Assembly (NCBI GenBank): GCA_963971425.1
Contig: OZ020524.1
Location: 4,435,773-4,499,772, forward strand
Origin: Bryoerythrophyllum caledonicum
Taxonomy: Eukaryota > Streptophyta > Bryopsida > Pottiales > Pottiaceae
Length of the DNA stretch: 64,000 nt
Direction: 5' to 3'
In this document: positions 916 to 64,000 of the stretch, in pieces
Numbering within the stretch: the first letter of the stretch is position 1
Layout of the letters: each line of letters begins with the position of its first letter
Translations under genes and position numbers: made by a program
The notes under the pieces: generated by a model
What the model saw: only the letters and a program-made list of their open reading frames with translations
Database searches by the model: none
Told to the model about the DNA's origin: nothing

Positions 916-980
916 TAAGTAAGGGAAAATATCTTCTATAGAGCAATGCTCAAATGGTACGCCAAGATCCACACATCACA

Positions 981-1398
981 AGGCCGATGCACATGACTAC
1001 CATATGGGGCTTCATCTCCCACATATGGTCCCTAAAAGCTTGGGTTTGGCTCCTCATGCCCACATGAGTTTCACAGTAAAATCCAAAGTGGTTCCAAACC
1101 AAACCATTTGGTTACCGTCTTCTTATTTACCTATTTAACCACATTATTACCACAATGTTCCAAGTGCGTTCCCAATGAGTTCCCGTGTTGTTCCCCAAAG
1201 TTCCCACTGCGTTCCCCAATGTGTTCCCACGGTTCCTAATGCGTTCTCCGTGTTCCCAAAGAGTTCCCAATGCGTTTACATGTGGGAACCAATTTACATA
1301 TTTAAAATTTATCCAAATTTACCTTTTAATATGTGGGGCCCACCACCAATTGTTGGGGTTCCCAAGCGGAGGCTCATCCGCACCATGTGCGTCTTACT
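981..1398. mobile_element. Candidate small insertion in the MP-1 promoter
   Basis: The promoters of MP-4 and MP-5 run straight from 'cacatcaca' into 'gtgagtcatgg', whereas MP-1 has about 420 extra bases here. The ends are weakly inverted (GATGCACATG and CATGTGCGTC) and ACA lies at both edges, as a 3-bp target duplication would. The superfamily is unknown and the boundaries are approximate. Confidence 0.4.
1150..1280. repeat. Degenerate tandem GTTCCC repeat
   Basis: About ten irregular copies of an 11-13 base unit built on GTTCCCAATGC lie inside the candidate insertion at 981-1398. The frame-open translations over it are low-complexity shadows and not genes. Confidence 0.6.
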
Positions 1399-1484
1399 AC
1401 AGTGAGTTATGGTCGAAGCCAAAAACCTTGTCTTCATTGTTCCGTGCCTATTGAATCGTCTTTAGAGCAAACCCAAAGAGTTTA

Positions 1485-1696
1485 AGCTTAGTTGCTGCCT
1501 CGCCGAACTAGCTTCCACGACGTAGCAGGAAACATTCCGAGAATGATCTTCACTCAGTCGGTAAGCAATTGTCCAAGTCGACAGAGACATAGATGCACGT
1601 TGACCAGAACTTGAAGGGCACAAGTTCAGAAATCAGGCAGGCACCTCTAGCATCGGAGAGCGCATGTGCAGTAGACAGAATTCTAGTGTCAAGGAT
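1485..1696 (+). promoter_or_regulatory. Conserved leader of MP-1
   Basis: About 200 bases upstream of the MP start are conserved in every full cassette. Shared blocks include CATTCCGAGAATGATCTTCA, an ATGCACGTTGACCAGAAC block, and ACAGAATTCTAGTGTC just before the start. It is probably 5' untranslated sequence containing short upstream reading frames. No TATA box is asserted. Confidence 0.45.
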
Positions 1697-2257
1697 ATGG
1701 AGTGCGCTCGCAAGAGATCAGTCCTTCCACAAGACTTCCACGAGATTCATGTATCATTGACGGGCGTTGGAACAATCGCTTTGCGGTATGAGCGCCTCCG
1801 CTTCGCGCTTCTAGGCAACAGCAAGTGGTTCCCCAAGGTGCCTTTGGGAATCTTGGTCTGGAGTGCGCTCCATGTGCTGCTCGTCGTGGGCGGTGCTTCT
1901 CTCCTGCTCCTGCCCTTGGTGCCCGCTGTAGCCCTTGCAGTGGCTGCGGACTGCATCCTGGGCACCATTTCCGGGCTGTACACTCTGATGTCTGTTCCCT
2001 TGGGTGCCCTTGTATTGATCGTGTTCAGCCTCGTGCTGCTTTGCAACGGCGAGGGAATCAGATGGGTGTGTCATTTGATTATGGTGTCCTGGAGAGATTA
2101 TATGAATCTCCCAGGAACGTGGTACCTCTATCTTACGGGCAGGTTGACTCGGGAACTTTTCAATGAGTGGTACCTGCCGAGGTTCCGGCCTGGTTGGAGA
2201 TTGGTGGGCAGGTGGTGTGAGGAGGTTGTGCACTTGCACGACACCTTTGTCATATAG
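1697..2257 (+). CDS. MP-1, small multi-pass membrane protein
   Basis: The protein is 186 residues from the family start MEC, which all paralogues share; an in-frame ATG at 1664 would add 11 residues. I do not recognise the family. Seen in order: a basic N-terminus (MECARKRS), a conserved EIHVS block near residue 16, YERLRFALLGNSKWFPKVPLG at about 31-51 broken only by small changes between copies, hydrophobic stretches at about 50-83 and 97-116, a variable region, and a conserved end GWRLVGRWCEEVVHLHDTFV. Two or three membrane spans are likely, with the Cys/His-containing tail on one side. There is no cleavable signal peptide by eye. It is a single exon. The closest relative is MP-4 in block B. 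The function is unknown. Confidence 0.7.
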   Translation: MECARKRSVLPQDFHEIHVSLTGVGTIALRYERLRFALLGNSKWFPKVPLGILVWSALHVLLVVGGASLLLLPLVPAVALAVAADCILGTISGLYTLMSVPLGALVLIVFSLVLLCNGEGIRWVCHLIMVSWRDYMNLPGTWYLYLTGRLTRELFNEWYLPRFRPGWRLVGRWCEEVVHLHDTFVI

Positions 2258-3147
2258 TTCTTGCACTTGCAATTCAAGGGAAGAGACGACGAGGGGACAA
2301 GAGATAGTTTAGACCTTCTTGTACATTCCGTTTTGAATGATTTAGTGATAAGCAACATGTTTGAGTGTGAAGCGGCAGGTTTGCTAGAAGTGGGTTGAAC
2401 CCTAAGCTCATGGTGATTTTGAACATGTTGAATCATGTTCCCGCAAACTTGATTTTCAATCGTAAGAGTGGATGTTTCGGGGAAATTTGTTATCCTTTTT
2501 CACTTAAGGGAAGGAAGCATTTTGAGTAGCGAACTTGTATGATAAGGGGATCGCATATGGAGCATTCCATCCAGGGTTGTAGATTTCCTTGCAATCTCAA
2601 AGACGGAGCTTTGTGGTATTTATGATTTTGGAGTTTGAATTCAGAGTGGAAAAGTCATTCGCGTGGAGAAGCTTGTTGTAGAGTTTTCAGGCATGAGACG
2701 GAACTCAGGCTTTAAGCGCAGACAGAGTATTTGCCGATGATGGTTTTAGAGTTTCTGGAAAATCTAGGGTTGGGCACGAATTTCGCACAGCTGGAATTCA
2801 GAGTTTCTTCAGAATGATCCGTTTGCGGTTTCGGAAGTCCTGTTATACTTCCGAAATGAGCATCAGATTGGATTTGTGAATGCAGATAGCCTTTGATTTG
2901 AAAGTCGAATGAAGACATTGTAGTGCTTCGAAAGATTAGGTTTAGACACGAATTTCGCGTATGATGAGTGTTGCTCGAGTTCAAAGTTGAAGTGGTCCGT
3001 GTAGACAGTTTTAGCTACATTTATGAAGGGAGTGTCACGAGACTGGATTCTGGGATTTGAATACTCTTTGAATGCCAAGTCGAAGAATAACATCTTAGTG
3101 TTTCGTAAGATAAGGTCAGCCTAGACATTTCGCGCTGCTGATCAAGG
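2258..3147 (+). repeat. Cassette tail with about 175-bp internal repeats
   Basis: The region downstream of MP-1 recurs after MP-4 nearly base for base and, more diverged, after MP-2, MP-3, MP-5 and in the MP-6 chimera. Within it a unit of about 172-177 bases repeats at least two and a half times; the landmark 'cacgaatttcgc' occurs near 2777 and 2948, and a weaker form near 3127. It contains no supported gene and is probably 3' untranslated or spacer DNA. Confidence 0.6.
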
Positions 3148-4154
3148 ATGTCAGGTGACGGAGCCACTCAAACAGCTGACTCCGACGGCTACATCTCGGC
3201 GTCGGAGCTGCACCACCGCATGCTGGAGACAAAGAAGCAGTTCCGAAAACCGGAGGTTGCGAGAGGCGCGTATGTCAACGTCTAAAGTGGAGGTGCTCGA
3301 GCACCCTCCAGGCCCCAACTCTCGTCTCACCTCGGGCGACCTGCAGAACCAGGTGAGATGGGTGCTGCCGGACGTCGAGAATCCCAAGTGGGTGTTCGTG
3401 AAGAACAAGCCGCTGGTGAGGAAGGTGGTGATGGTGCGCATGCCCGCGTGCTTCCAGAGCCTGACGCGATGGTGCGGCGCCCAGTGGCGGGAGGGGCGAC
3501 TGTGGAGGCCCTGTTGAGTTGCCCGGCGAAGACGACGACGAGCATGGATCCGTCCTCCTCGACACCCTCCTGAAACCCCAAACCCGATCACGAACTACAT
3601 CACGCAGTATAGCGGCATCACGGCGGCCATGCTGGTGCCCGTCGCGACGGCCCTGGCGCAAGTCTAGACGCACATGCTCGCCCTGGTGCACACGGACACA
3701 ATTCCCGTGGGCAACTCCCTGGGGAACAAGCTGGCGCACGCACGCATCATCGACACGGCGGTGCTGTACGAGAGGCGCCACAAGCTCGAGGTCCGGGCGC
3801 TCATCTCCCGGCATCTGCAGGGCTCGATCCAGGGCGACGACCACGGCCACGATACACACGCTCGCCGCCATGGACCTGGCTCTTTTGAAGATCCGCAGTG
3901 GTTCGGGTTTTCCCAGTATTGCGAAGCCCAAGTGTGAGAGCCTGATTCTCGTGCTGGCGCGTCGCGGTCGCCGAACCGTGGTCGTTGATAGACGCGAGGA
4001 GGTGCAGCAGCACGCCATGAGTTCCTGCGATGCGGTTGCGGTAGCTTCAGACGACGAAGTTTGTGTGAAGGTGGTGGAGGAAGTGGGGAGAAGTTGGGTG
4101 GATGTCGTGTGGCTCAGTTCCGGGACGCGGATCAAGCGTTGGAGGATCGGTTGA
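3148..4154 (+). pseudogene. REX-1, broken REX1/SDN-type 3'-5' exonuclease
   Basis: Translations in several frames match a plant DEDDh RNA exonuclease in order. They are an EF-hand-like loop (DSDGYISASE), the block RGAYVNV, WVLPDVENPKWVFVKNKPL, VLLDTLLKP, ILVG-type 'VGNSLGNKLAHARIIDT' near 3706, and then MDLALLKIRSGSGF with a C-terminal domain (VDRREEVQQHA, SCDAVAVASDDEVC). The stretch that should hold the first catalytic motif (DxE in ALDCEM) is absent. An in-frame TAA lies at 3280-3282, and the frame changes at least three times. It has no introns. It is a non-functional host gene remnant, present in nearly identical form at 41597. Confidence 0.75.
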
Positions 4155-4404
4155 GGAGAGTGTAAGAAAATCACAAGTAGCCATTTCTCCTGTTTAAAAA
4201 CACATTGGATTTGAGATTCTCACTCCAAGATGCAGGTGTAGATATTCTTTTCATTGAGAATGTGAAAAAGGTGCCGTTTTCTTGGCCTCTGTGACCAGAT
4301 TTTGACTTACTTGCTTCGAAAATTCTTGAAGTAGTAAGTGAAAATTGATACTCGGTTAGCCTCTAGTTCCGAACCTACTCGCCGGAGTGGGTTTCGACGA
4401 TGGA
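4155..4404 (+). other. Spacer between REX-1 and the MP-2 leader
   Basis: This matches the sequence after REX-2 (42610-42815) up to 'tactcggttagcctctag'. It then joins directly to the MP-2 leader, while block B has about 1.6 kb more here. MP-2 therefore lacks the distal promoter present upstream of MP-5. Confidence 0.5.
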
Positions 4405-4598: not shown

Positions 4599-4979
4599 AT
4601 GGAGTGCACTCGCAAGAAATCAGACGCTCCACATCAAGCATGCGAGATTCATGTATCATTCACGAACTCGGCTTCGGGGTATGAGCGCCTCCGCTTTGCG
4701 CTTCTGGGCAACAAGTGGTTCCCCAAGTGCCCTTCAGGAATCCTGCTGTGGAGTGCGCTCCATGTGCTGCTCGTCGTGGGTATTGCTTCTCTCCTGCTCC
4801 TGGCTTCGGCGATCATGATATTTGAAGGACTGGTAGTGGACGCCTTGGTTATCTGTATGGACGGTCGAGGTGCTGCTACTTCTAAACATGTCAAAGCTTG
4901 TTGGGGGTTCCCTGTTTGGAGATCGGTGGGCAGGTGGTGTGAGGAGGTTGTGCACTTGCACGACACCTTTGTCGTGTAG
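4599..4979 (+). CDS. MP-2, short membrane protein of the MP family
   Basis: The protein is 126 residues from the MEC start. It keeps the family N-terminus (MECTRKKSDAPHQ, EIHVSFTNS, YERLRFALLG, KWFPK), one long hydrophobic region (GILLWSALHVLLVVGIASL, continuing for about 20 more residues) and the conserved end (WRSVGRWCEEVVHLHDTFVV). Compared with MP-1 and MP-3 it lacks about 60-70 residues between the hydrophobic core and the tail, so it may have only one or two membrane spans. The nearest relative is MP-5. The function is unknown and no break is seen. Confidence 0.65.
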   Translation: MECTRKKSDAPHQACEIHVSFTNSASGYERLRFALLGNKWFPKCPSGILLWSALHVLLVVGIASLLLLASAIMIFEGLVVDALVICMDGRGAATSKHVKACWGFPVWRSVGRWCEEVVHLHDTFVV

Positions 4980-5881
4980 TTGTTTTCACTTGCAATTCAA
5001 GGGAAGAGAGTGACTTACGTCAGGGGGATAGTAGATAGTTTAGATATTCTTCTACGTTTCGTTCTGAACGATTTATGGTACGCAACATGTTTGTGAGAAG
5101 CGGCAGTTTTGCTGGAAGTGGGTCGAACTGGAAGCTCATGGTGACGTTCAACAAGTTGATTATGTTTCCGTCAACTTGATTTCAATCGTAAGAGTGGATG
5201 TCTCAGAGGAATTTCGTATGCTTTTTATTCAAGGGATGGGAGCATTTGGAGTAGTGAACTTGTATGATAATGGGATCGTATATGAAGCATTCCATCCAGG
5301 GTTTTAGATTTCCTTGCAATCTCAAAGATGGCTCAACTTTGTGGTTTGTTTGATTTGGAGTTTGGAATCACAGTGCAAAAATCATCTGCGTGGAGAATCT
5401 AATCTTCTAGTCGAGTTTTCAGGCATGGGATTGAATTTAGGCTTTAGATTCTAAGCGCAGACACAGTTTTGTCGAAGGAGAAGATGATTTTAGAGTTTCT
5501 GGAAAATCTAGGGTTGGACACGAATTTCGCACAGGTCAATTTCAGAGTCGAAGACATCCGTGCGTAGTTTCGCAGACCTGTTACACATCTGTTGCATCAG
5601 TTTGGATTCCGGGATATAGATAGCGTATGAATTGAAAGTCGAATAAAATCATCCTAGTGCTTCGGAAGGTTAGGGCTAGACATGAATTTCGCACATGGTG
5701 AGTGAAGTTCGAGTTCAAAGTTCAAGAGGTCCGTGTGGAGAGTTCCTGCTACATTTGTGAAGGGAGCGTCACGAGACTGGATACAGAGATCTAGGTTGCC
5801 TTTGGATCTACAGTCGAAGAAAAACATCTTAGTATTTCAAAAATTAGAGTAAGAATAGAAATTTTGCGCTGCTGCTCAAGG
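4980..5881 (+). repeat. Cassette tail after MP-2
   Basis: This is a diverged version of the tail after MP-1 with the same landmarks ('cacgaatttcgcaca' and the degenerate repeats). No gene is supported within it. Confidence 0.55.
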
Positions 5882-6080
5882 ATGGCAGTTGACGGAGCCG
5901 CTCCCATAGATCCGGACTCTCATTCCGCCGGCTCCATCTCGGCGCTGCACCACCGCGCGCTGGAGAAGAAGAAGCGGTCCTGCGAACCGGAGGACACGAG
6001 AGGCGCGTATTTTGACATCTAGGGGACGGAAGTGAAAGCAGAGGTGATCGTGCAGCGCCCAGCCCCAACTATCGTCCCAC
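5882..6080 (+). pseudogene. REX N-terminal fragment
   Basis: It starts with the same ATG context as REX-1 and reads SISALHHRALEKKKRSCEPE, then DTRGAYFDI. A TAG stop follows, and then GTEVKAEVIVQRPAP in the same frame. It is cut off by the TA-flanked MITE at 6081. Only the EF-hand-like and RGAYFD portions remain. The loop is more degraded than in REX-3. Confidence 0.6.
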
Positions 6081-6082
6081 TA

Positions 6083-6548: not shown

Positions 6549-6554
6549 TAACCA

Positions 6555-6755: not shown

Positions 6756-7065
6756 CACTTAAACCCCATTGATATGATAAATCTTTCTCCTTCGACCCCA
6801 CAGTCATTGCAGAGGATGATAAACATGTTCCGTTCCGGCTCGCCGAACGAGCTTCGACGAAGGACGAGAGAACCATTCCGGGAATGATCTTCACTTAGTC
6901 GGCAAGCAATTGTCGGAGTCACCGAAAATACAGATGCACGTTGACGTGAACGTGAAAGGCACAAGATCGAATACCAGGCAGTCTGAGAGAGCAGAGCGCC
7001 TCAAGTTCGAAAGAGCGCAAGTTTAGCGGCACTCGTGGCGCAGACAGAATTCTAGTATCTAGGCT
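6756..7065 (+). promoter_or_regulatory. Conserved promoter and leader of MP-3
   Basis: It is nearly identical to the region before MP-7 (about 55197-55504), including 'gctgatcacttaaacccc', the GGATGATAAACATGTTCCG block and the shared leader with ATGCACGTTGACGTGAACG. Confidence 0.45.
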
Positions 7066-7662
7066 ATGGAGTGCACTCGCAAGAGATCCGGTGCTCCACA
7101 TCAAACGTACGAGATTCATGTATCATTTACCAACTCAGGCGTCCAATCAATCCCTTCGATGCACGAGCGCCTCCGCTTCGCGCTTCTAGGCAACAGCAAG
7201 TGGTTCCCCAAGGTGCCTTTGGGGATCCTGGTCTGGAGTGCGCTCCATGCGCTGCTCGTCGTGGGCGGCGCTTCTTCCATGCTCCTGGCTTCGGCGTTGG
7301 CGACTGCCTGGGGACTAGCATGGTACTGCGCCGCGTTCTTTGCGTATGCGGTCTTGACTCTGGCATATTTTCTGGTGCTTGCACCGTTTTGCTTGCTTTG
7401 GTTGTCGATGAGGGTGAGCTGGGCGCTGATGCTTGGCGATGGCGAGCACGGCGAGCGAATCAATGTGGCTTGGAAGGGCTTTCACGTCTGCTGGAAGGCA
7501 TGTTTGGATGCAGGTATGTTTTTGCAGGAAATATGTCATGTTGAAGTTGTTTGGGGACTTGTCCATATGACTAGTGACATCTTGAAGGTGTGCCCGGGTT
7601 GGAGATTGGTGGGTAGGTGGTGTGAGGAGGTTGTGCACATGCACGACACCTTTGTCATGTAA
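7066..7662 (+). CDS. MP-3, small multi-pass membrane protein
   Basis: The protein is 198 residues and is the longest intact member. It has the conserved MECTRKRSGAPHQTYEIHVS start, HERLRFALLGNSKWFPK at about 33-49, and a hydrophobic core at about 51-115 (VPLGILVWSAL through FCLLWLS) long enough for three spans. A cysteine-containing segment (WKGFHVCWKACLDAG) and the family end GWRLVGRWCEEVVHMHDTFVM follow. The stop codon TAA is created by the left edge of the MITE that inserted into the ancestral TAG. The closest relative is the split MP-7. The function is unknown. Confidence 0.7.
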   Translation: MECTRKRSGAPHQTYEIHVSFTNSGVQSIPSMHERLRFALLGNSKWFPKVPLGILVWSALHALLVVGGASSMLLASALATAWGLAWYCAAFFAYAVLTLAYFLVLAPFCLLWLSMRVSWALMLGDGEHGERINVAWKGFHVCWKACLDAGMFLQEICHVEVVWGLVHMTSDILKVCPGWRLVGRWCEEVVHMHDTFVM

Positions 7663-8206
7663 GGTAGAGGCACCCAATTTCGATCCGCCACCCAATTCCG
7701 ATCATTAGAGTATGCATGGCATGGTGCATGAAAATGGCAAATGCTTGAAATGGTACATGAAGTGACCCAAAACTGATAACTCAAAATTTGAAAACACCAG
7801 TCATTATTAGCATTGGGTCATGATGTGTGCAATTTTGGGTTGCTCCATGTCAATTGAGCTCTCGTTGGGGTATTGCCTCGAAAGTCGAACAAGGCCGATT
7901 GGTATTGGGTACCCTCCATGAGTTGGTAACCCATGGCATGTCTTGTATCTTTTTACTCACTCTCACTTACTGGCATTGGGTGAAAGAGGGCACCAAATCT
8001 CACCTACTCTAGAGTTTGATTATGGGCTTTGATGGTTTTTGGGCTTTTAAATTCTATATCAATTCCAAATCTCTGAGATTAAATGTGAAAAAATATTTGT
8101 TGAGTTTCATTCCTAATTCCGCATCGTTCTACATAAACGTTTTTGACATACAATGTCATTTGAGTCCCGAACTGGCTTAAGTGATCGGAATTGGGTACCT
8201 CTACCT
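7662..8206. mobile_element. TA-flanked MITE in the MP-3 stop codon
   Basis: The terminal inverted repeats AGGTAGAGG(C/T)ACCCAATT and TA on each side (7660-7661 and 8207-8208) define a Tc1/mariner-type MITE. Removing it restores the 'TAGTTGTTTTCAC' seen after MP-2. The same insertion lies after MP-7 (63063-63596), so it predates the block duplication. No coding capacity. Confidence 0.7.
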
Positions 8207-8208
8207 TA

Positions 8209-8574
8209 GTTGTTTTCACTTACAATTGGGAAGATAGTGACTTAGGTTAAGGACGATAGTAGAAAGTTTGGTTTAGTCCTTCATCCATGTTCGGTTCAAA
8301 TGAGTTAGGGAACAAACAACATATTTGAGTGAGAAGCGGCAAGTTAGCTAGAAGTGGGTTCCAAAGAGATTTGGTGGCGCCCTCTTTCTAGAATACATCT
8401 CCACTGGATCATACCTAACCCTTTGAGTAAATATAATCAGGACCAGAAGAATGTTAACCTTCACTTTTGACGTCACATTCATTAGAGATGATGATATACA
8501 TCAACAGAAGATAATTTTACTCCAATTGATGTTCTGGTTCTTATAAATTTTGCGATATTATCAACCTATCATGT
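8209..8574 (+). repeat. Cassette tail after MP-3
   Basis: The first half aligns with the start of the MP-1 tail ('gagaagcggcaagttagctagaagtgggtt'-type sequence). The second half aligns only with the end of this window (63740-63965). No gene is seen. Confidence 0.5.
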
Positions 8575-8576
8575 AA

Positions 8577-33305: not shown

Positions 33306-33368
33306 CTCCTCGAACGATGATCTTCCTCATTAAAAAAACTTCAAAAATATGAAGGAAAAAGAGTAAAG

Positions 33369-36824: not shown

Positions 36825-36836
36825 CTCACAGACATA

Positions 36837-40706: not shown

Positions 40707-40708
40707 TA

Positions 40709-47535: not shown

Positions 47536-47636
47536 ATGCCAGGTGACGGAGCCGCTCCGACATAAAGTGGACTCCGACTCCGACGGCTACATCTCGGCGT
47601 CGGAGCTGCACCACCGCGTGCTGGAGAAGAAGAAGC
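47536..47636 (+). pseudogene. REX-3 N-terminal part, split by Copia-3
   Basis: This short piece encodes a canonical EF-hand loop, DSDSDGYISASE, followed by LHHRVLEKKK. It has the best-preserved loop of all copies. It is interrupted by Copia-3 at the GAAGC target and continues at 52965. Confidence 0.65.
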
Positions 47637-47809
47637 TGTTGAATTCTCCTGCGTCTTCCTTCCATCAACTGCTGTAGCACTGTAGCATTGTAGCATCTGT
47701 AACTTCATTCATCTTGACTTTCGGAACTGTGTATAATCAGGGCGATGCCCTTCATAATCCATGCAGTATTAACACACGTTTGTGTCGCTTGTTCTTGATG
47801 AGTCCAACA
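47637..47809 (+). repeat. Copia-3 5' LTR
   Basis: Starts TGTTGAATTCTCC and ends GAGTCCAACA. 173 bases, with one extra copy of an 8-base repeat compared with the 3' LTR. Confidence 0.9.
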
Positions 47810-48099
47810 TGGTATTAGAGCGATTAGACAGATGATCAGAGTTTTTAGACTAGACTAGAACAACATTGACTGGTAGTGTAGCCTTGGTCCTACCCAAACA
47901 AAGCAAGAGAGAAATAGTTACAGAAAAGAGAGAACGTAGACATGACAAAAAGCTTAGTGATCAGAGAGACAGACAAGCTAAAAGGCTTGTCTAACTATCA
48001 CATATGGAGTACCAAGAATGGAGCGATCTTGAGATCGAAGAGACTCTGGAGTCTCACTGAAAACGAGTGTACACTAGCACCTGATCCGTAGATAGTCGA

Positions 48100-51000: not shown

Positions 51001-52250
51001 CGGACAGTCCTATCATTGGCCACCAAGAACAACTGGTCCATATATCAGATGGACGTCGTAACTGCATTCCTGAATGGACATTTAAAAGAAGAAGTTATCA
51101 TGGAAATCCCTCCCGGTTTTCCATCTGCCAATGATCCTCGCAAAGTATGTCGCTTGAAGAAGGCACTTTACGGACTGAAACAAGCATCCAAAGCATGGGG
51201 TGATGAAGTTGACGCATGGATGCGTAAACAAGGCCTCACACGTAGTGCACACGATCCCAATCTTTACTATGCAACTATCGATGGCAATCGCGTCATACTA
51301 CTTCTATACGTCGACAATCTTCTCATCACGGGCAACAACGCAGTTGAAATCGACCGTTTACGAGATGCTTTCTATAGAGACTACGACATGACAGATTTAG
51401 GTCTGGCTCGAATATACCTCAATGCTGAACTCACACGAACTCAGGCTGGAATCTTTCTCACTCAGAGAAACTACATCACACATCTACTCAAGAGATTCAA
51501 CATGTCCCACTACAACCCTTGCCGCCTTCCCATGGATCCTAACCTTCAACTACAACGACACACTAATACAAGTCCTGTAGACACTTATCTCTACCGTTCA
51601 CTTGTTGGCAGCCTCATTTATTTAACAAACACCAGGCCTGATGTATGTTATGCGGTCAGCACCATCTCTCGCTACATGGATGCTCCTGAAGAAGCTCACT
51701 ATCAAGCTGCCAAAAAGATCCTACGTTATCTCCAAGGGACAATCGATTATGGCCTCTTCCTACCTGTAGGAAATTCAGATAGTTATTACACCTATAGCGA
51801 TGCTGACTGGGGCCAAGATTTTGATACCAGAAAATCGACATCATGAATACTACACAAAATCGGTAATGCAAGCATCGCATGGAGCAGCAAACTTCAACCA
51901 ACAGTTTCCTTATCTAGTACAGAGGCTGAATATCGTGTCCTCACCGATGCTGCAAAAGATATCATTTACTATCATAGACTTCTCAGGGAACTTGGATTTG
52001 ATCATGATCAGCCAACACAACTACTAAGCGACAATGAATCATGTATAAAACTAGCTCAAAATCCAGTTCAACATTCCCGTACCAAACACATAGATATTCC
52101 GCAACATTTTATTTGAGAAGCATCTCACAATGGAGAAGTACAAGTCCTGCATATTCCCACCACCCTCCAACAGGCTAATTTTCTGACCAAACGAGTGGCA
52201 TACTCGAAATTCATTGCCAACCGAACTAGTGCAGGCATCCTTTCTTCCGC
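48100..52250 (+). pseudogene. Copia-3 gag-pol region (fossil)
   Basis: Gag with CCHC knuckle (CYNCGIPGHFARNC near 48805), protease (WYFDSGATSHI), integrase (LWHKRLGHLSYAGL; LRSDRGGEY), reverse transcriptase (ALYGLKQASKAW; LLYVDNLLITG) and RNase H (YSDADWGQDF) follow in Copia order. It is broken. Confidence 0.85.
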
Positions 52251-52794
52251 ATCTAACCCTACAGCCTATCCTTGATCCACTGAGGAGTATACCAGCCATC
52301 AACCCACAATGCTCGCTTAGTCTTCTTATGTCGAAAGTCCGGTGCTCTTGGATTGCTCTTTGCTGCGCGGTTATCATACCACTGAGTCGGATCCTCAAAA
52401 TACGACAACCAACAAGACTCCGTCGAAGTCTCCTCGTCCACACGTCCCTCCTGCATCACGACCTCTTCCTCTTCATATGCCCTGCCACCTTCCATCTCCT
52501 CCAACCGCCTGGCCCTAAACATCCAGAACCAACAAGTATCCAACACCCAATCCCAAAACCGACGCATCAGCAGACCGCACTCCCACATCATCAAAAGAAT
52601 AATCTGCGCCTGCACCCACCAAACCCTCGTTATTATTCATTTCGACATTCCTCCTACAACTCAAGAAAGAACCACTCACCGTAGAAAGCCGCTCTATCTG
52701 CTCCCACAAGGTCATCGCAGTTCCTAATGCTCGTCGCTGCACCCTCACCATCCCTCTTGAAGTGGCAAATTATGAAGTCGCAGTCGAGGGAGGG

Positions 52795-52959
52795 TGTTGA
52801 ATTCTCCTGCGTCTTCCTCCCATCAACCACTGTAGCACTGTAGCATCTGTAACTTCATTCATCTTGACTTCCGGAACTGTATATAATCAGGGCGATGCCC
52901 TTCATAATCCATGCAGTGTTAACACACGTTTGTGTCGCTTGTTCTTGATGAGTCCAACA
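52795..52959 (+). repeat. Copia-3 3' LTR
   Basis: Pairs with 47637-47809 and is preceded by the purine tract GTCGAGGGAGGG. Confidence 0.9.
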
Positions 52960-52964
52960 GAAGC

Positions 52965-53285
52965 GGTCCTGCAAACCAGAGGTCACGAGAGGTGCGTATT
53001 TCGACTTCTGCGGGACGGAAGCGATCGTGCACCCTCCAGGCCCCCAACTCTCGTCTCACCTCGCGCGACCTGCAGGACCTGGTGCGATGGGTGATTGCGG
53101 ACGGCGAGAACCCCAAGTGGGTGTTCGTGAAGAACACGCCGCTGGTGAGGAAGGTGGTGATAGTGCACGTGCCCGCGTACTTGCAGAGCCTGACGCGATG
53201 GTGCGGCGCGCCGCGCCGAATCGCGGGAGGTGCGGGTGTGGAGGCCCTATTGAGAAGACGACGAAGAGAGCAGGTGGAGGAGTGA
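52965..53285 (+). pseudogene. REX-3 continuation after Copia-3
   Basis: It reads VTRGAYFDFCGTEAIVHPPG, then frames matching LTSRDLQDLVRWVIADGENP and WVFVKNTPLVRKVVIVHVP. It ends before the exonuclease catalytic domain. Frame changes are present, so it is not functional. Confidence 0.65.
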
Positions 53286-53969
53286 TCGGGAGCATAGTGT
53301 AAGTCGCCAGAATTGGCCGTCTCTTGTTCTTCCTGCTGCTCGCGAGAATCAAGCATCACCTCTTCCTTCCTGCGGGAGTCAACTATCATCTCTTCGTTCT
53401 GCTTGCGAGAATGAGCCATCTGAACCAGGCAAGTTCAGAACCAGGCAGTCTGAGAAAGCAGAGCACCTCAAGTGCAGAACAGAGCAAGTTTTGTGACGTT
53501 CAATCAAGATGATCATGGTTACAATTGTAGTAGTGGATGTTTTGGAGAAATTTGTTATCCTTTTCATTCAGGGGATGGGAGCATTTGCAGTAGCGAACTT
53601 GTATGATAATGGGATCGCATATGGAGCATTCCATCCAGAGTTTTAGATTCCTTGCAATCTCAAAGACGGAGCATAGTCGTTTTTATGATTTTGGAGTCTG
53701 AATACAGTGTGAGAAATACATTCTCGTGGAGAATCTTCTAGTCGAATTTTCAGGCTTGAGATTAGACTCAAGGCTTTCGAGTTTAAGTGCAGACAGAGTT
53801 TTGTCGAAGAAGAAGATTTCAGGGGTTCAAGAAAATCTAAGGTTGGTCACGAATTTTGCACGGTTCGAGTTCAGAGTTGAGGACATCTCAAAGGAGGCTA
53901 TTTGTGTGTAAATTTTTCTGTAAATGAAAATAAGTTTTGAATTGAACTCGGGCATGACAATAATCGCTT
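53286..53969 (+). other. Chimeric junction: REX end, leader piece and tail piece
   Basis: After the REX fragment comes unique sequence. A short leader-like block ('aaccaggcagtctgagaaagcagagcacctcaagt'-type) follows near 53430, then a tail segment from about 53520 ('gaaatttgttatcctttt'). The order differs from normal cassettes, indicating unequal recombination between units. No gene. Confidence 0.5.
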
Positions 53970-54258
53970 CGGTCCACGAGCGCCTCCGCTTCGCACTTCT
54001 TTAGGCAACAGCAAGTGGTTCCCCAAGGTGCCTGTAGGAATCTTGGTCTGGAGTGCACTCCATGCGCTGCTCGTCGTGGGCGGCGCTTCTTACACGCTCC
54101 TTGCTTCGGCGATGGCGATTGTGGCGGTACTGTTTTCGGTCTCTCTCATGGTCTATGCGATCCTAATCTGCATGCCTCTGGTGTTTTTTCTAGTGTTTGC
54201 ACCTTTGATACTTGCTTTCAATCGAAAGACTAGATGTTTCGGGGGTATTTGTGTGTAA
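53970..54258 (+). pseudogene. MP-6, 5'-truncated MP family fragment
   Basis: It starts within the core (HERLRFALL in one frame, then extra bases shift to SKWFPKVPVGILVWSALHAL). Hydrophobic segments through FFLVFAPLILAF follow, and it ends at an unrelated tail (TRCFGGICV). The conserved N-terminus and the WCEEVVHLHDTFV end are both missing. It is fused to tail sequence upstream. Very likely a recombination relic. Confidence 0.6.
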
Positions 54259-55084
54259 TGGGAGTGTATATAGAGCCATACATGTATTTGGTATTTGCTA
54301 CTAAATGGTTTATGCTCTGAATCTGGGATTCATGTCTCATTAGAACCCCTTTCTCTGTACATCTCAAATCCATTTTAGAGATTTAATATAATTCAAAGAT
54401 TTCAAACAAACATGAGGATACACGTTGATTGATAGGAACTGCAAATTATGCACTCCATAACCAAAATATTACCAATGTTTCAGTCCCTTTTGTGAGCTTA
54501 GTAAACTTTGCTGTGTATTTGTAACTTGTGGTTCCTGCCACTCACAGCCTGGTCTCTTTAGACAACTCATGTGCATCAATCAACTGAGGCAGGTTACGAG
54601 CTCTTGAAGCCGATTGTGATTTATTTAGAATGCGAGTCTAGACTCTTTGTAGATTCTCATGATTCTAGTGCGATGGGATTTGAGCAAGGAGAAGAATCTC
54701 CGGTTTTGTACCGACGTGAATTAACTCAGTTTCATTCTTGCATTAACACAAGGTTCCATTCTTGCATCTGCTGTGAAGATCAAGTATGTTAATCAAGTGA
54801 AGTCAAAGTCTGCTGATCCACTGAACCCAGGGAAGAAAATGAATCATTTTCCCTACGTCAAACACTATTATAATCTTTTAATTAAGAAATTTTGTGAGTA
54901 TGTTACTATGTAAACTTGTCGTAATTGAGATTCTATGGTCAAACCTAGAAATAAAAGTGTTTGTTTCCTTTCTTACTCATCGCACTAAAATTAACTGTTT
55001 CGAAGTGTTTTTCGTGTGCAATTGTGTACAAAATTCGGGGTTGATCTGGCGAAACATCAGACTTTCCGCTCGAGCATTGTATTT
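54259..55084. other. Spacer with a dispersed repeat
   Basis: No gene. The stretch 54796-55030 is related to the right part of the TTAA-flanked element at 18481 and, inverted, to the interior of the MITE at 6083. Confidence 0.45.
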
Positions 55085-55504: not shown

Positions 55505-55628
55505 ATGGAGTGCACTCGCAAGAGATCCGGCGCTCCACATCAAACGTACGAGATTCATGTATCATTTCCCAACTCAGGCGTCCGATCAACCGCTTCGGTG
55601 CACGAGCGCCTCCGCTTCGCGCTTGTAG
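55383..55628 (+). other. Leader frame overlapping the MP-7 start
   Basis: An 81-codon frame from ATG 55383 runs through the leader and about 120 bases past the MP-7 start in another frame (MHVDVNVKGTSSNIRQPE, then GADRILVSRLWSALARDP). Parts of this frame are conserved in other copies. It may be a regulatory upstream ORF or chance conservation forced by the MP frame. Confidence 0.3.
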
Positions 55629-55693
55629 GCAACAGCAAGTGGTTTCCCAAGGTGCCTTTGGGGATCCTGGTCTGGAGTGCGCTCCATGCGCTG
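55505..55693 (+). pseudogene. MP-7 N-terminal part, split by Copia-4
   Basis: Reads MECTRKRSGAPHQTYEIHVS, FPNSGVRSTASVHERLRFAL, VGNSKWFPK and GILVWSALHAL, then enters Copia-4. It is the partner of MP-3. The remainder of the gene lies at 62652. Confidence 0.75.
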
Positions 55694-56054
55694 TGTTGTA
55701 AATATGAGTTTCAGATGGGAAAAGAAACAAGTGTCATGAGGCAAAACACACACTAGAGATTGTCACTCAACGGTATCTGTATTGCATGGCATCAACTGCA
55801 GGAACTGAGTACAATCAGACTTCACTCTTCTGATGAGAAGAGTCATGTGTTTCACTCTTCTAAATGCCTTGGAAAACATCCTCTCTTGCTTCCCCTAAAT
55901 AGTAGTCAGGCAGGTGTGAAACGACCTAACAAACTAACAAACTAACAGATCATGATGCTTCCGTTGAGGATGTTTTCCACATCATAATATTTGCTCCCCA
56001 GCGTGTCGCTCCACGTCGGTTGAGCTCCAGCGTTACGTCTCCATATCTTCAACA
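55694..56054 (-). repeat. Copia-4 3' LTR
   Basis: 361 bases with TG..CA ends, pairing with 62291-62651. Confidence 0.9.
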
Positions 56055-57141
56055 CTCCCCCTCAGACTGCGAGCGTCCAGTGTGAGCAGGCTGAAAAGGC
56101 ACTGGAGACGAAAAAATATCAAGTATCGAGGCAAGGAAGAAGGCCGATCGCACTGCGGAGATAGCAAAACCGGTCGGTAGGTAAAGGCTTCGTAAAAATG
56201 TCGGCCAGTTGATCAGTAGTGGGGACGTAGCAGACGTTGATGTCACCGCGCTGTTGGTGATTCCTGATGAAGTGATAAACATTGTCGATGTGTTTGGTGC
56301 GGCGGTGAAACTCCGGATTGTGCACCAGTCGGATAGCACTGTGATTATCAGATAACAAGGGTGTGGGAAATGCTTGAGGAAAACCAAGATTTCCCAGTAG
56401 TCTGTGAAACCATATAACATCTTTGGTGATAGAGCTGGCTGGGACATATTTAGCTTCAGTCGTGGAAGTAGCGACACAAGCCTGCTTCTGACTTCCCCAA
56501 GAGACAGGTGCATGATCAAGCAGTAATAAGGTGCCGGAGCGACTCTTCCTATCAACGATGTCGCCACCATAATCAGCGTCTGTGTAAGGAGACAGAGTGT
56601 TGGTGCCAGCATGCCCGTCGTAGCATAGAGCTAAATTAACCGTACCGGCCAAGTAGCGAAAAATGCGGCTAACTACGAGAAAATGGGGTCGCTGAGGATT
56701 TGCGGAGAATTGTGCGACTCGGCTGACTGCGAAACTAATATCAGGTCTCGTAAGAATCTGCACAAATAAAAGACAGTCGACGGCGGCCAAGTAAGCAAAG
56801 GTAACTTCTTCAGGTGGATCGTCGACGTCGTCCAAAGGCGTGTTCGGATCAGCTGGAGTAGAGGTCAGGCGGCATCCGTCAAAGCCAAAACGAAAAAGCT
56901 CGGGGGGTGCACCTTTCATTAAAACCTAGAATCACGTGCATGCGCAGCCTACATTTAAAACCCCCTATATACAACTTTCTTTTGGTGAAAGGAGGTAATA
57001 CACATACAATTACAACAATAAATATACAAGTGACAATATGTATACACAAAAAAAAATCCATTCATATATAGTCATTAACATAAGTATACAAATATACTTT
57101 TGAACAAAAATCAACCCCTATAATATGTATAACAAAATATT

Positions 57142-57759
57142 CTAACTTTCATCAGCAAAGTCGTTGAAAACTTTTTCATCACCTGGATGTAACTCATAAA
57201 CATTTAATTCGGCAATATATGTCATTGTAGCCAATGCAATTATTGTCTCTAAGTCTACCATCAAATGATCAGTAAGATCATATGTCCACTTGTTGTTAGT
57301 CCCTTTTTGATACCAACATAAACCAATCTCCACATTTGATGGACGGTCCATCAAGTCAATTGGATCCCTCTACTCCACCCAACGATTACCAAACTTTCTC
57401 CGCATCCTATAAACCCTTCCAACAAACCAAACCTTCACTTGAGTAGATTTTTTTGGCCTCCCTCGTTTTTTCACAATTTTAGCTTCAGGTGTGTTCAAAA
57501 AACACAGACCACTGTCACAACCAAGCTTTAGCAAAGTATCATGGCTTCCGGGACTAAGGAGTTTAGGCTTCATATACAATATGCCAGCCTTAATTCGAGT
57601 CAACCGATCTTTAGACAAAGAAGGATTGCCATTCAATTGACTAACAAGTGTACTTTTAAAAATTCTAGACTCCCCTACCATTACATAAGCCACACTTGAC
57701 TTTACATTTGATAGAGAGGAAATTTCAGCACCTTCATGTTCATCAACAAGAACATCCAA
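57142..57759 (-). pseudogene. Unrecognised gene inside the nested element
   Basis: Two frames lie end to end on the minus strand, separated by a single TAG after NRWVE. They read VAYVMVGESRIFKSTLVSQL, an AT-hook-like KKRGRPKK, KVWFVGRVYRMRRKFGNRWV, and then DPIDLMDRPSNVEIGLCWYQ to FNDFADES. Codon-like structure and the AT-hook suggest a chromatin or DNA-binding protein piece. It may belong to the transposon or be a captured host gene. I cannot name the family. Confidence 0.4.
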
Positions 57760-58002
57760 AGTATGTCGAAGGATTTAAAAAGGTAAATTCGGGCATGCCA
57801 CTAAGGGCAGCCCATGATTGCCAATAATTGGTGCAAATTTTTCCACTTAAATTTGTTTAAGGTTGTCTAAATTCGTCCCAACCCACATGCCACTACTTCA
57901 TGATTTTTTACTCTACCCAATTCTACCTAATATCATGTCACGATTTGCATGTGACTACTCTAATTGAACTAGTGATTGGTTGAAGGCTTTTGTTTTAAGC
58001 CT

Positions 58003-58104
58003 TTAATCTTCTCTTGGCTTAATTTTTCTCCTTGGCTTTATGCCTAATTGTTCTTCTCTCTTATGTTTTCTTTTTCTTTTATCTAATCTTATTGATCTAG
58101 CCAT
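58003..58104 (-). other. Short basic frame inside the nested element
   Basis: From an ATG on the minus strand at 58104 it reads MARSIRLDKRKRKHKREEQL and continues for 14 residues (to ...KPRED) before a stop. It is highly basic and could be the 5' exon of the gene at 57142-57759. Weak support. Confidence 0.25.
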
Positions 58105-61100
58105 AGTGAAACAAAGCCATACGACGGAGAAACAAGAGAAACAAAGAGAAACAAAGCCATACTTGAACTGTCGAAGCCAGCCTAAAACCACAGAGCCTTG
58201 GAACGTTGAGGAAGCACAATGAACGCACAGCAACGAGCGACGAGCGAGCGCTCAAGCAAGCGAGACAGCGGCGGCCGACCAGAGTAGAAAACAAAAACCT
58301 AAGCGAGCGCTCAGGCAAGTCGAACAGCGGCGGCCGACCACAAGATAACGAATGAGCTTAACGAATCGTCCTAAAACCCTAATACTGCCTTTTTGCCCGA
58401 TATTACCCTGATGCAAGTACATTGCTAATGAAAATCATTCATCCTAGTTTCATCCAATATGAAAACTTATCCTATGTAGTATGGTAATGCTACCATACAA
58501 GTACAACTGTTGTATACTTCTTAAAGGCCTTTCATATATGTACGTAGTTACAATATATAATATATATACCATATGTATACGTAATACGGCAAGGTTCTAA
58601 TCAATACCCCTCCTGTGCACTCACGTATACTCGTACATGTTTAGTACAGTGCACCCCCCGAGCGAAAAAGGATGCGGTGCAAATAGATGGCTTGATGAAC
58701 ATATATGAGGCGGCGGTCTTCTGATTGGTGAATATGTAATCCTACATATAGATCAATAGAGGTGCGGGTTGTGGAAAAACGGCTCTCCATATATGACATG
58801 AGCTGATCCAAACGTTCGTTTGCAGGACTGCAAGCTAAACCGTCGTCGACGAAAAGCGTAACAATAAGAATCGGGGAGGAGCGCGAGATGTAGACACATG
58901 GATCAGCCTCGGTAGGTTCAAGCTGAAAATTGAGTAGGAACTCATGGAAGGTTTTATTCCAAATCCTTCCTGACTGCTTGAATCCATAGAGGCTTCGAAA
59001 GACCAGGCATACCAGTAGCTGTCTGTCAGAATTGTGAACTTCAAATCCAGGAGGTTGGTACATGTATAAAACTGTGTCAATGAGGCCATTTAAAAACGCC
59101 ATTTGAATGTCGAATTGGGTCATGTGCATGCCCTGTTGAGCAGCGATGCTGAGAACGGCCCTGATAGCATCATATTTAACTACAGAGCTGAAAGTTTGGT
59201 CATAATCCACGCCTTTGGTTTGAGTACAGCCTTGTGCCACCAACCTGGCCTTGTATTTTGAAACGGAACCATCTGGATTCGTCTTCACACGATAAATCCA
59301 CTTGCATTTTGTTGCCTTTCGCCCCTGTGGAAGTTGTATAAGCTTCCACGTTCCTGAATTTATTAAGGAGTCATAATCTGTCTGCATGGCTGCCTGCCAC
59401 TCTGAAGCTTGTGGACTGCGCATAGCTTCGTTGTACGTGTCAGGATCTTCTGGAATGTGTATCATTTCACTAGAAGAGGAGGCCACACGAGTCGAGTTAG
59501 AAGAGCGGGCGATGCCAGCAAAAGACTTGGGTACATAGTAATCGATGTACCTGGTGGGAGCACCACGTATGCGGTGTGGCCGGGTTTGATGATGGTTTTC
59601 TGCCTCAGGATGGATGCTTTGGATTTTGTCATGATCTGCTACAGGCGAAATCCCGGCTGGACTGCTTTCTTCCGCCACAAGTTCGTTTGAAGCTTGGTCC
59701 TCAACATTGTCACCTTGTAGCTCGGTGTTCGACTGAGAGATCGTGTTGTTCGTAGGCGGAGCGTTGTCGGGGCAGATCGTGGAAGTACCATGAAGAGAAA
59801 AAAGACCTGAGATTGCGTCTGTAGCCGGTGCAGTGGGAGATGAAAACTCATCAAAGATCACATCACAGCTTACAATAATCCGTCGTTGGCGAGGATCCCA
59901 AAGTCTGTACGCTTTTGTGTAACTGCAATAACCGACAAAGAGGGTTTTGATACCTTTCGGTTCTAACTTGGTCCGTCGTGCTTTTGATACGTAGACGTAC
60001 GCAATACTCCCAAACACCCGCAAATGACCAACTGCTGGTTGCCGCCCTGTCCACATCTCGTACGGTGTCTTTGAGCAGAGGCGAGATGCAGATCAGTTTA
60101 ACAGATACGCTGTTGTTTGAACCGCCTCACCCCACCATCGAGTACTCAGTCCCTTTGCATGCAGCATTGTGGGGACGCATTCCACCAATGTTCGATTTTC
60201 GCGCTTAGCAACTCCATTTTGTTCCGACGAGTATGGACTGGTGAGTTCATGCATGACGTTTTGGCCGGCAAGGAAAGTGCCAAATGCTTGACTTACATAC
60301 TCCCCTCCTCGGTCGCTGCGGATCTTTTGAATCTGGTTCCCTGTCTGAAGAGATACTAGTGGACACAAGGTTCTGAAGCATTCTATGACTTCTGATTTTT
60401 CTCTTACATAGAAAACAAATCGGAAACCAGAGTAGCCATCTTTGAACAAGATGAAATACCTCGCGCCACCAATCGACGATTGTCGCATTAGACCACATAC
60501 GTCTGTGTGAAAGAAAATCCCGGGCCTATCAACTCGGGGCGTTGTGCTCTTCTTTGGAAAAGGCTTTCGGAAACTCTTTCCAACCGCACATCCTTCACAT
60601 GGACTTTGTGGCAATGTAGGGTTTTGGAGATCCAATCCGTCTACCATTGCCTGAGCATGCATTCAGACGATTTGAACGTAGTTGACATGCCCGAATCTCT
60701 GGTGCCAGAGCGTCAATCTCGGTGTCTGCATCAACACGGGCTCCGGGCTGGAAGCGATGACCACGTTTGCGTGACTGGTAGGAAGAGTGACTCGTATCCT
60801 CAGTTCGTACAACTTCGTCGTGCGGGCTCCTGTCATCACCACGCTTTCGTTTGCTGTAGTAAAGTAACTCGCTTTTCTTGTGTACGTCGTGACATAGCCT
60901 CGGTCGGTGGCTTGTCCTACCGAGAACAAGTTTTTCTTCAACTCAGGGACAAATAGCACCCGTTCAAGTTTCCTGTCCAACCACTTTCCTTCAACAAAAC
61001 ATTGGACGTGTATTGTGCCTGTGCCTCTTACCCACAGACGCCTGTTATCGCCTATCATCGCAGGCCATTTGCCTTCGGCGACCTCGTTCAAGGTCTGAAA

Positions 61101-61222
61101 CCATTCGATGCAGTCGCTCATGTGCTCGGTCGCTCCGCCGTCCATGAACCAAGTATCCTTATCTTGCATGTCACATGCATGTACCACAAAGGCAGAGCTG
61201 TCTTCTTCGTCTGCATCTTCGC

Positions 61223-62350
61223 TTATAACAGCATTTGCTTCGCTTTCTTTGGTGCCTGGTTTCTTCTCAGTCTTGGTCTGCGCACCTTCTTTCTTGTTCT
61301 CCGGGCACTCCGCATCTTTCTCCCAATGTCCCTTTCGACCGCACTTGTTGCACTTCGTTTTATTCTTAATTTCTGCAATCTTGGCTGCACGCTTCTTCTT
61401 TTCTTCGATCGATGCTGACGTTTGACTTCCGCCGGAAGACTGTCCTCGAGAGAAAAAAACGCTTTATCCCCTTTTGCATCGACTTCATCTTGCATGCAAT
61501 TTCTCTTCTCCTCTTTGAGCAGCCTCAGTGTCAAAGATTCGATTGTCTGCTAATCACGTGGGACGTTGTCCCATGCAGCAATAAGGTACCGAAAGCTTTG
61601 TGGAAGTGAAGAAATCACTTTACACATCACAGCTTGTTCGCTAACGGGCTCCCCTAGATCAGTAAGCTGGTTTCCCAGCTGCTCCACCGTGCTAATGTGA
61701 TCCATCACATCAGGGCCCGGTCGCATCTTGAGATCAAAGAACTGTTGCTGCAGAAGCTGAATGTTCTCAGTTGCGTTTAGTTCGTACACAGTGTTCAATC
61801 TGCGCCACATTTGGTGAGCCGTTCGGCATGTCATGAGTCTGCGCAGAAGCTTAGGGTCTACTGCAGATATAATGATGGATTGACAAATCGCGTCTTTGTC
61901 AGCCCACTCGTTCATGTCATCGCAGGCTTCCATTCGCAAACTACCATCTATGATCCCTATTAGCTTTCTGGCTCGAAACATTATCATCATTTGGAACTTC
62001 CATACGCTGTAGTTTTCGCTGGTGAGCTTTTCCACATGCGTGGTCAGACTTACAGACTCTTGTCTAACTGGAAAAGACACTTGAACTTGAGACTGACTGC
62101 GTTGATCATCTGTGACTTCCTCGACTAAAGGTGTGTGTGTCTGGACACGATTACCAGCTCCAAGGCCGGTTGTGAAATCGTCTGGGTCCATGACAGGTGA
62201 AATCTTAAAGGTGCTACAACTAATGTAGACAGACACGACACTTGTAACCAAAAAAAACTCTATCTGTACCCACGAAGTGGGCCCATAACCTGTTGTAAAT
62301 ATGAGTTTCAGATGGGAAAAGAAACAAGTGTCATGAGGCAAAACACACAC
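61223..62350 (-). pseudogene. Copia-4 gag (fossil)
   Basis: Minus-strand frames include LTSENYSVWKFQMMIMFRAR, WRRLNTVYELNATENIQLL and, further on, a zinc-knuckle region near 61330-61360. The layout is typical Copia gag. It is broken overall. Confidence 0.75.
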
Positions 62351-62651
62351 TAGAGATTATCACTCAACGGTATCTGTATTGCATGGCATCAACTGCAGGA
62401 ACTGAGTACAATCAGACTTCACTCTTCTGATGAGAAGAGTCATGTGTTTCACTCTTCTAAATGCCTTGGAAAACATCCTCTCTTGCTTCCCCTAAATAGT
62501 AGTCAGGCAGATGTGAAACGACCTAACAAACTAACAAACTAACAGATCATGATGCTTCCGTTGAGGACGTTTTCGACATCATAATATTTGCTCCTCCGCG
62601 TGTCGCTCCACGTCGGTTGAGCTCCAACGTTACGTCTCCATATCTTCAACA
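62291..62651 (-). repeat. Copia-4 5' LTR
   Basis: 361 bases, nearly identical to 55694-56054. Confidence 0.9.
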
Positions 62652-63063
62652 GCTGCTCGTCATGGGCGGCGCTTCTTCCATGCTCCTGGCATCGGCGATG
62701 GCGGTTGCCTGAGGACTAGCATTGTATTGCACCGTGTTCTTTGTGTTTGCGGTCTTGGCTCTGGCATATTTTCTGGTGCTTGCACCGTTTTGCTTGCTTT
62801 GGTTGTCGATGAGGGTGAGCTGGGCGCTGATGCTTGGCGATGGCGAGCACGGCGATCGAATCGAAGTGCCGTGGAAGGGCTTTCATGTCGGCTGGAAGGC
62901 ATGTTTGGATGCAGGAGGTATGTTTTTGCGAATATGTAATGTTAAAGGTGTTTGGGAACTTGTCCATATGACTAGTGGCATCTTGAAGGTGCGCCCGGGT
63001 TGGAGATTGGTGGGTAGCGGGTGTGAGGAGGTTGTGCACCTGCACGACACCTTTGTCATATAA
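62652..63063 (+). pseudogene. MP-7 C-terminal part after Copia-4
   Basis: It continues the MP-3-like sequence: LLVMGGASSMLLASAMAVA, a TGA stop at 62710-62712 (MP-3 has TGG), GLALYCTVFFVFAVLALAYF, LVLAPFCLLWLSMRVSWALM, and GWRLVGSGCEEVVHLHDTFVI. The tail has SGC where others have GRWC. The TAA stop is formed by the same MITE insertion as in MP-3. Split and stopped, so a pseudogene. Confidence 0.75.
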
Positions 63064-63596
63064 GGTAGAGGTACCCAATTCCGATTGGCCACCCAATTCC
63101 GATCAATAGAGTAGTGCATGAAAATGGCAAATGCTTGAAATGATACATGAAGTGACCTAAAGCTGATAACTCAAAATCTGAAAACACCAGTCATTACCGG
63201 CATTGGGTCATGATGTGTGTAATTTTGGGTTGCTCCACCTCAATTGAGCTCTCTTTGGTGGCATTGCCTCGAAAGTCGAACAAGGCCGATTGGTATTGGG
63301 TACCCTCCATGAGTTGGTTATCCATGGCATGTCTTCTCTCTTTTACTCACTCTCACTTATTGGCATTGAGTGAAGGAGGGCACCAAATCTCACCTACTCT
63401 AGAGTTTGATTATGGGCTCTGGTGGGTTTTGGGCTTTTAAATTCTATATCAATTCCAAATCTTTGAAATTAAATTTGAAAAAATATTTGTTGAGTTTCAT
63501 TCCTAATTCCGCATCTTTCTACATAAATGTTTTTGACATACAATGTCATTTGAGTCCCGAACTGGCTTAAGTGATCGGAATTGGGTGCCTCTACCT
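63063..63596. mobile_element. TA-flanked MITE in the MP-7 stop codon
   Basis: Orthologous insertion to 7662-8206: the same TIR AGGTAGAGGTACCCAATT and the same TA (63061-63062 and 63597-63598). Shared by both blocks. Confidence 0.7.
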
Positions 63597-64000
63597 TAGT
63601 TGTTTTCACTTGCAATTGGAAAGATAGTGACTTAGGTTAAGGAGGATAGTAGAATGTTTGGTTTAGTCCTTCGTCTATGTTTTGTTCAAATGACTTAGTG
63701 TACAAGCAACATATTTGAGTGAGAAGCGGCAGGTTAGCTAGAAGTGGGTTCCAAAGAGATTTGGTGGCGCTCTCTTTCTAGAATACATCTCCACTGGATC
63801 ATACTTAACCCTTTGAGTAAATATAATCAGGACCAGAAGAATGTTAACCGTCACTTTTGACGTCACATTCATTAGAGATGATGATACACATCAACAGAAG
63901 ATAATTTTACTCCAATTGATGCTCTGGTTCTTGTAAATTTTGCGATATTATCAACCTATCATGTAAGGTGGAGGGGTGCAGTACATGAGTGTAATGTTAA
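63597..64000 (+). repeat. Cassette tail after MP-7, with CACTA empty site
   Basis: Aligns with 8209-8574 and then directly with 10949 onward, at 'tatcatgTAAggtggagggg'. It therefore shows the site before the CACTA element inserted. The window ends here. Confidence 0.65.

Follow-up and report, generated by a model that had tools for sequence, protein, structure and literature searches.

The PrpS protein of Papaver and the SE protein of Ipomoea are described as products of about 20 kDa that have several transmembrane (TM) segments and no known domain, and that are polymorphic and lineage-specific (PMC13033167). The RPW8/HR locus of Arabidopsis is presented as a tandem cluster of membrane-associated proteins which are not nucleotide-binding leucine-rich repeat receptors (NLRs), which have variable parts and which are tied to the NLR RPP7 (PMC6684095). 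The wtf genes encode predicted TM proteins that change rapidly and undergo nonallelic gene conversion (PMC6526906). Here we analyze a family of small membrane proteins, called MP, that has features of all three systems. Seven of its copies lie in a stretch of 64,000 nucleotides from Bryoerythrophyllum caledonicum (C12:4435773-4499772 in the 437-Mb, 894-contig genome; the window in what follows), together with a TIR-type immune-receptor gene (TNL). Codon evolution in the family indicates that the core of MP is under diversifying selection, and both of its ends are conserved.

MP is predicted to be a small integral membrane protein, and it is without known relative. From the N-terminus on, it consists of a conserved tail, ~65 mostly hydrophobic residues, an amphipathic C-terminal part and a conserved end (..WCEEVVHLHDTFV[IMV]); in alignments of 13 and 16 rows, its invariant residues lie in the N-terminal R.LRFALL..KWF.K.P.G.L.W and the C-terminal CEE..H.HDT.V. 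A frame on C14 that is 32% identical to MP-3 retains the two ends around a short core. Pfam returned 0 families for four MPs of the window, and for 13 members the sole match was MIB_HERC2 at chance level (E 0.17). Pfam contains RPW8 and Wtf models, and neither was among the matches of the MPs up to E 1. The MP sequence profile had no match in the PDB, and two AlphaFold2 models (pLDDT 66.3 and 77.4, pTM 0.41 and 0.48, the second of each being MP-3) gave no Foldseek match at E 0.001 or better. Searches for MP relatives in viral contigs and prokaryote genomes gave pattern matches only, none of them confirmed, and no paper on the family was found in the literature covered, to which subscription papers did not belong. 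No RNA gene or tRNA was found when looked for.

The window is part of a larger array, with related MP copies spanning C12:4.38-4.67 Mb, and a second array lies at C12:6.60-6.77 Mb. Searches with MP proteins gave 41 and 42 genomic places at E 0.001 (these places are pieces, not genes), mostly in the two C12 arrays, and on this distribution we rejected a tandem repeat carried by transposable elements as an explanation of MP. Stray pieces occur on C3, C4, C6, C14 and C774 and at C12:19.57 Mb; three places on C6 (L047, L048 and L049, at about 14.14, 14.46 and 14.53 Mb) hold no more of MP than its C-terminal box and short pieces of the tail. Open frames from ATG to stop, of 126 or 186-198 aa, were present in 15 of 16 copies checked, and the remaining one has TTG in place of ATG.

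To describe selection, we took as the core the end of TM1, the loop, TM2 and the second loop. When five paralogs from the 6.6-Mb array were compared (S6765 was excluded because its core is identical to that of N6639), the amino acid changed in 56 of 194 codons and 3 codons showed silent change only; variable residues concentrate at 60-98 and 150-167. Pairwise Nei-Gojobori (NG86) estimates for the core gave nonsynonymous divergence (dN) of 0.09-0.17 and synonymous divergence (dS) of 0.01-0.05. Maximum-likelihood omega (dN/dS) of the core was 5.8 (MG), 7.3 (MGK) and 7.4 (GY), and the comparison with omega 1 gave twice the log-likelihood difference at 20.9 (p 4.7e-6). The flanking DNA served as a neutral yardstick: core codon positions 1+2 were variable at 57 of 222 sites versus 55 of 643 in the flanks (Fisher 1e-9), and position 3 was variable at 10 of 111, which is the flank rate (p 0.86). 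Since positions 1+2 vary threefold and position 3 at flank rate, and pairwise differences by codon position are 137/156/43, the codon-position counts rejected translation of another reading frame as an explanation. Long open frames do overlap MP-1 (1811-2308, - strand, antisense) and MP-3 (7056-7544, + strand, +1 frame), and the codon-position counts favour neither the antisense nor the +1 frame.

Diversification of the core was also seen in and around the window. A set of seven rows from the window array, from which M6604, the 6.6-Mb copies and the short forms were excluded, gave omega 1.57 for the core (p 0.007) and 0.45 for the ends (p 9e-4); NG86 values for the N-terminus of MP-5 were not used, as they include residues upstream of its frameshift. 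Between MP-1 and MP-4 the Kimura two-parameter distance (K2P) was 0.103+-0.018 for the core and C-terminus versus 0.033+-0.004 for the tail that follows the gene. In two modules that hold both a TNL and MPs (delta and zeta), the MP cores differ by 24 nonsynonymous changes and 1 synonymous change in 105 codons (dN 0.104, dS 0.015). Thus, the role in conflict that the sequence-only reading of this DNA had called conceivable gains strong, although indirect, support from codon evolution.

Several results weigh against this interpretation. The ends of the five-paralog set had omega 1.7, indistinguishable from 1 (p 0.45), and the core of MP-1, A and MP-4 alone gave omega 2.3, which was not significant (p 0.054). 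The core comparison between modules delta and zeta (copies G and K) taken alone gave a binomial p of 0.018, and of the noncoding 400-bp bins beside these cores (99.7, 99.8, 95.5 and 98.1%) the 95.5% patch also shows raised divergence. Finally, all the tests used paralogs from one assembly, and gene conversion breaks their assumption of a single tree. A cause without any adaptation, be it relaxed pseudogenes, a mutational hot spot or gene conversion by diverged donors, would agree with the broken state of 4 of the 7 window MPs and with the evident conversion; against it stands that positions 1+2 evolve three times as fast as the flanks and position 3 no faster than they do, and diverged donors would bring many silent changes (core dS is 0.43-0.59 between distant MP copies), which the close pairs do not have. 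We regard such a cause as very improbable.

Amino-acid change far above the neutral rate usually marks direct molecular contact in a conflict. We therefore favour, with a probability of roughly 0.6, the reading that the MPs are variable recognition determinants with constant ends that take part in a conflict. In this reading, the parts that vary (the end of TM1, the loop, TM2 and the second loop) would contact a changing partner (a pathogen molecule, a rival's protein or a mate's protein), the fixed ends would contact constant cellular machinery, and in those modules which have one a conserved TNL may read out the state of the MP. In MP the fast-changing part lies in and around the membrane segments, the family is without known relative, and a copy of it travels with an immune-receptor gene. 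The recognition target of MP, and the possible use of membrane partners by plant TNLs outside seed plants, thereby become directly testable questions.

If the partner were a mate's protein, MP could be an atypical receptor of self/non-self or mating recognition, like poppy PrpS or Ipomoea SE, with the core as specificity region. Both the build described for those proteins (PMC13033167) and the diversified core would fit; likened by description, MP has 186-198 aa, about 65 hydrophobic residues and no Pfam domain. However, unlike PrpS and SE, the MPs carry constant signatures at the N- and C-terminus and form a multi-copy tandem family that partly adjoins TNLs, and at least 15 open copies in a tandem array do not resemble a single multi-allelic S-locus, so that we consider this origin of the variation unlikely.

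The recognition-determinant reading leads to the TNL, since other MP blocks are also preceded by it. The TNL region of the window (20217-27245, + strand) holds a TIR domain (22205-22867; Pfam TIR_2 7.9e-15, TIR 6.7e-11), a candidate NB part (23727-24425) and candidate leucine-rich repeats (LRR, 24562-25986). The NB-ARC match was below threshold (E 0.035, 13.8 bits versus a cut-off of 23.5) and the N-terminal part of this domain was not located; the LRR models, too, scored below their cut-offs (LRR_14 5.1e-8, 32.5 bits versus 40). At least three further copies of the 7-kb region, at 92%, lie at C12:4505628, 4585368 and 4653103, and they precede the next MPs (4515828, 4620591 and 4663346) by 3.1, 28 and 3.2 kb; in the window, 11 kb, including the 5.2-kb Copia-1 element, separate the end of the TNL from MP-4. 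The TNL and an MP block thus co-occur on the same strand in four modules (the window and 4.51, 4.59 and 4.65 Mb), and the position of the TNL copies upstream of other MP blocks indicates that TNL and MPs were amplified together. A fifth copy of TIR and LRR lies at C12:4834341-4838111 on the minus strand. Between modules delta and zeta the TNLs are 97-100% identical per 250-bp bin, and their LRRs differ by 6 nonsynonymous and 5 synonymous changes in 474 codons (dN 0.005, dS 0.016).

Such an arrangement recalls an immune component paired with an NLR, as RPW8/HR is with RPP7, in which MP would vary as a sensor of pathogen molecules or as a decoy for them, and the response would be triggered by the TNL. 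The likeness in gene arrangement consists in a tandem cluster of predicted membrane proteins with variable parts adjoining an NLR; the four same-strand modules and the conservation of the TNL while the MP core varies agree with it. The differences are that MP has no RPW8 match in Pfam and that its long hydrophobic core varies, not C-terminal repeats; moreover, co-duplication alone suffices for the linkage, and MP blocks without a nearby TNL exist. We judge the pairing possible but doubtful. More specifically, and with still less confidence, the TNL-MP modules may be an undescribed two-part system, in which a conserved TNL would read a hypervariable membrane partner, the TM and loop core would carry specificity, and the C-terminal box would be a recombination handle that reassorts cores between expression contexts.

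Two observations count against a necessary role of the TNL. In the search for copies of the TNL region, which scored 19 of 4116 candidates, none of the matches listed placed a TNL of this type before MP-1 or before the block at 4.426 Mb. In 258 kb that include parts of the 6.6-Mb array, the TNL frames of the window had no tblastn match other than themselves. MP blocks without a TNL of this type mean that the two need not be linked, and the linkage could have arisen by passive hitch-hiking. TIR-type receptors are numerous in this genome (150 of 299 candidates were scored): among the matches listed, about two dozen TIR places at C12:3.75-9.9 Mb have 79-100% identity to the window TNL, and many of them are consecutive at C12 4.93-5.33 Mb, where no MP copies were listed. 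Downstream of the window TNL, the frame 30946-31401, first called Sfi1-like, had no Pfam match at E 1, and none of the matches listed showed it in another TNL module; the segment 27702-28817 has a 97% copy at C12:4611178.

Exchange between MP copies was traced at their C-terminal box. G4515 and K4663 are 82-100% identical per 40-bp bin along the coding region, and the similarity ends at the stop; beyond it, G4515 follows the MP-1 tail at 92-100%, the box being the common stretch. These alignments show G4515 to be a K-type gene that is connected through its C-terminal box to a tail of the MP-1 type. The core is the same in N6639 and S6765, and it lies between 5' flanks of 93.1% and 3' flanks of 95.8% identity. 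The box is conserved at synonymous sites too (distant copies differ at 0-2 of 11-13 such sites), as expected from exchange through the box. MP copies have swapped parts at this conserved box.

Conversion of this kind is also a property of selfish killer genes such as the fission-yeast wtf spore killers, whose small multi-TM proteins change in an arms race. The MPs are likewise predicted TM proteins that are fast-changing and convert between copies, and the growth of the array, the many dead copies and the lack of orthologs in the genome set examined could be understood in the same way. Yet MP has a single open frame, whereas most wtf genes consist of five or six exons, it gave no Wtf match in Pfam and its C-terminal end is constant; a killer function is, in our estimate, a long shot.

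The seven MPs of the window had been noted to share one orientation, and our self-comparison of the window placed all of them on the + strand. MP-1 (1697-2257, ATG to TAG, 186 aa, included in the family alignment), MP-2 (4599-4979, a short form of 126 aa) and MP-3 (7066-7662, 198 aa) are open from ATG to stop, and the other four are broken. In MP-4 (38483-39062) the conserved ATG is out of frame and a Tc1 insertion lies in the stop codon. MP-5 (44701-45079), again a short form, has a 2-base deletion relative to MP-2 and hence a frameshift, MP-6 is a fragment with a broken frame (about 53945-54260), and MP-7 is divided by Copia-3 into a 5' part (55505-55693) and a 3' part that includes the C-terminal box (62652-63063).

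The best pairs named by the sequence-only reading, MP-1/MP-4, MP-2/MP-5 and MP-3/MP-7 in matching order, agree with the identities from self-comparison: 91% for MP-1/MP-4 (846 columns) plus 96% along the 2.1-kb tail, 97% for MP-2/MP-5, and 94% and 92% for MP-3/MP-7. A tree of the 5' region and N-terminus (21 rows, with 7 of 18 inner branches open) also grouped the copies by type and not by block. The noncoding K2P of two pairs agreed (0.033+-0.004 for the MP-1/MP-4 tail, 0.033+-0.014 for the 5' side of MP-2/MP-5), but that of MP-3/MP-7 was higher (5' side 0.047+-0.013, tail 0.060+-0.008; z about 3 on tails), so that a single event cannot fit all pairs. Nor are the pairs exclusive: MP-4, compared over 600 bp, has higher identity to a copy outside the window (95%) than to MP-1 (90%), and the MP-1 tail recurs at three further places on C12 at 96%, which makes four in all rather than two. 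Block members recur at C12 4.426, 4.437, 4.474, 4.515, 4.620 and 4.663 Mb, and MP-2-type copies at 4.430, 4.440, 4.480, 4.520 and 4.622 Mb. Duplication of a multi-gene block is thus supported by gene order and by the tree; a single event with two copies is contradicted by the recurrences and the divergence of MP-3/MP-7. As to the insertions thought to split the blocks, the Copia and Tc1 elements are later arrivals, whereas treating the TNL as a mere separator was partly wrong, as its copies precede other MP blocks.

The tails, all on the + strand, were compared by self-comparison, and their exonuclease pieces were identified by tblastn with a 600-aa frame on C15. This frame matches RNase_T (2.9e-9), and the PDB chain closest to it is 5z9x, Small RNA degrading nuclease 1 (3.5e-28). 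The MP-1 tail (2258-4366, 96% to 40707-42815) holds an SDN1/REX-like remnant at 3275-4112, the MP-2 tail (4980-6080) a short fragment at 5945-6070 and the MP-4 tail (40707-42815) a remnant at 41724-42562; the MP-5 tail pieces with a fragment at 53040-53228 (47274-53254) are split by Copia-2 (47637-52959). The MP-3 tail (7663-8576) is 92% identical to 63063-63966. Of the suggestion that most MPs are followed by the same tail and a remnant, four of seven stand (MP-1, -2, -4 and -5), and no remnant was found after MP-3, -6 or -7. The four larger remnants (4.427 Mb, MP-1, MP-4 and 4.516 Mb) cover at most residues 62-166 and 281-482 of the C15 frame; all lack residues 167-280 with VDCEMC, and the catalytic DEDD motifs were not recovered. 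Searched directly, the pieces gave no Pfam RNase_T and no PDB match. By these alignments the exonuclease part of the tail is a dead SDN1/REX-type passenger that is older than the block copies.

Copia-1 (33017-38223, - strand) lies upstream of MP-4, with long terminal repeats (LTRs) at 33017-33306 and 37927-38223 and a 5-bp duplication. Because the matching site next to MP-1 on its upstream side is empty, Copia-1 would be expected to postdate the block copy; nevertheless its LTR K2P (0.065+-0.016) exceeds the block divergence of 0.033+-0.004. This conflict could be due to a higher rate of change in silenced elements or to homogenisation of the blocks at a later time. Copia-3 inside MP-7 (55694-62651, - strand) has 361-bp LTRs that are 98% identical (K2P 0.020). 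In genome searches with abundant transposons among the queries, contigs C5 and C13 had no match among those listed. The Tc1-type transposon in MP-4 (39063-40706, + strand, frame 39207-40142) has inverted ends and is inserted at the TA of the stop; a second one lies at 46264-47052, and both carry HTH_Tnp_Tc3_2 and DDE_3. Genome searches with the two scored 127 of 3538 and 146 of 4026 candidates, and the matches listed include dozens of copies of 341-343 aa whose scores do not differ; this suggests that a burst of Tc1 elements took place recently in this plant genome.

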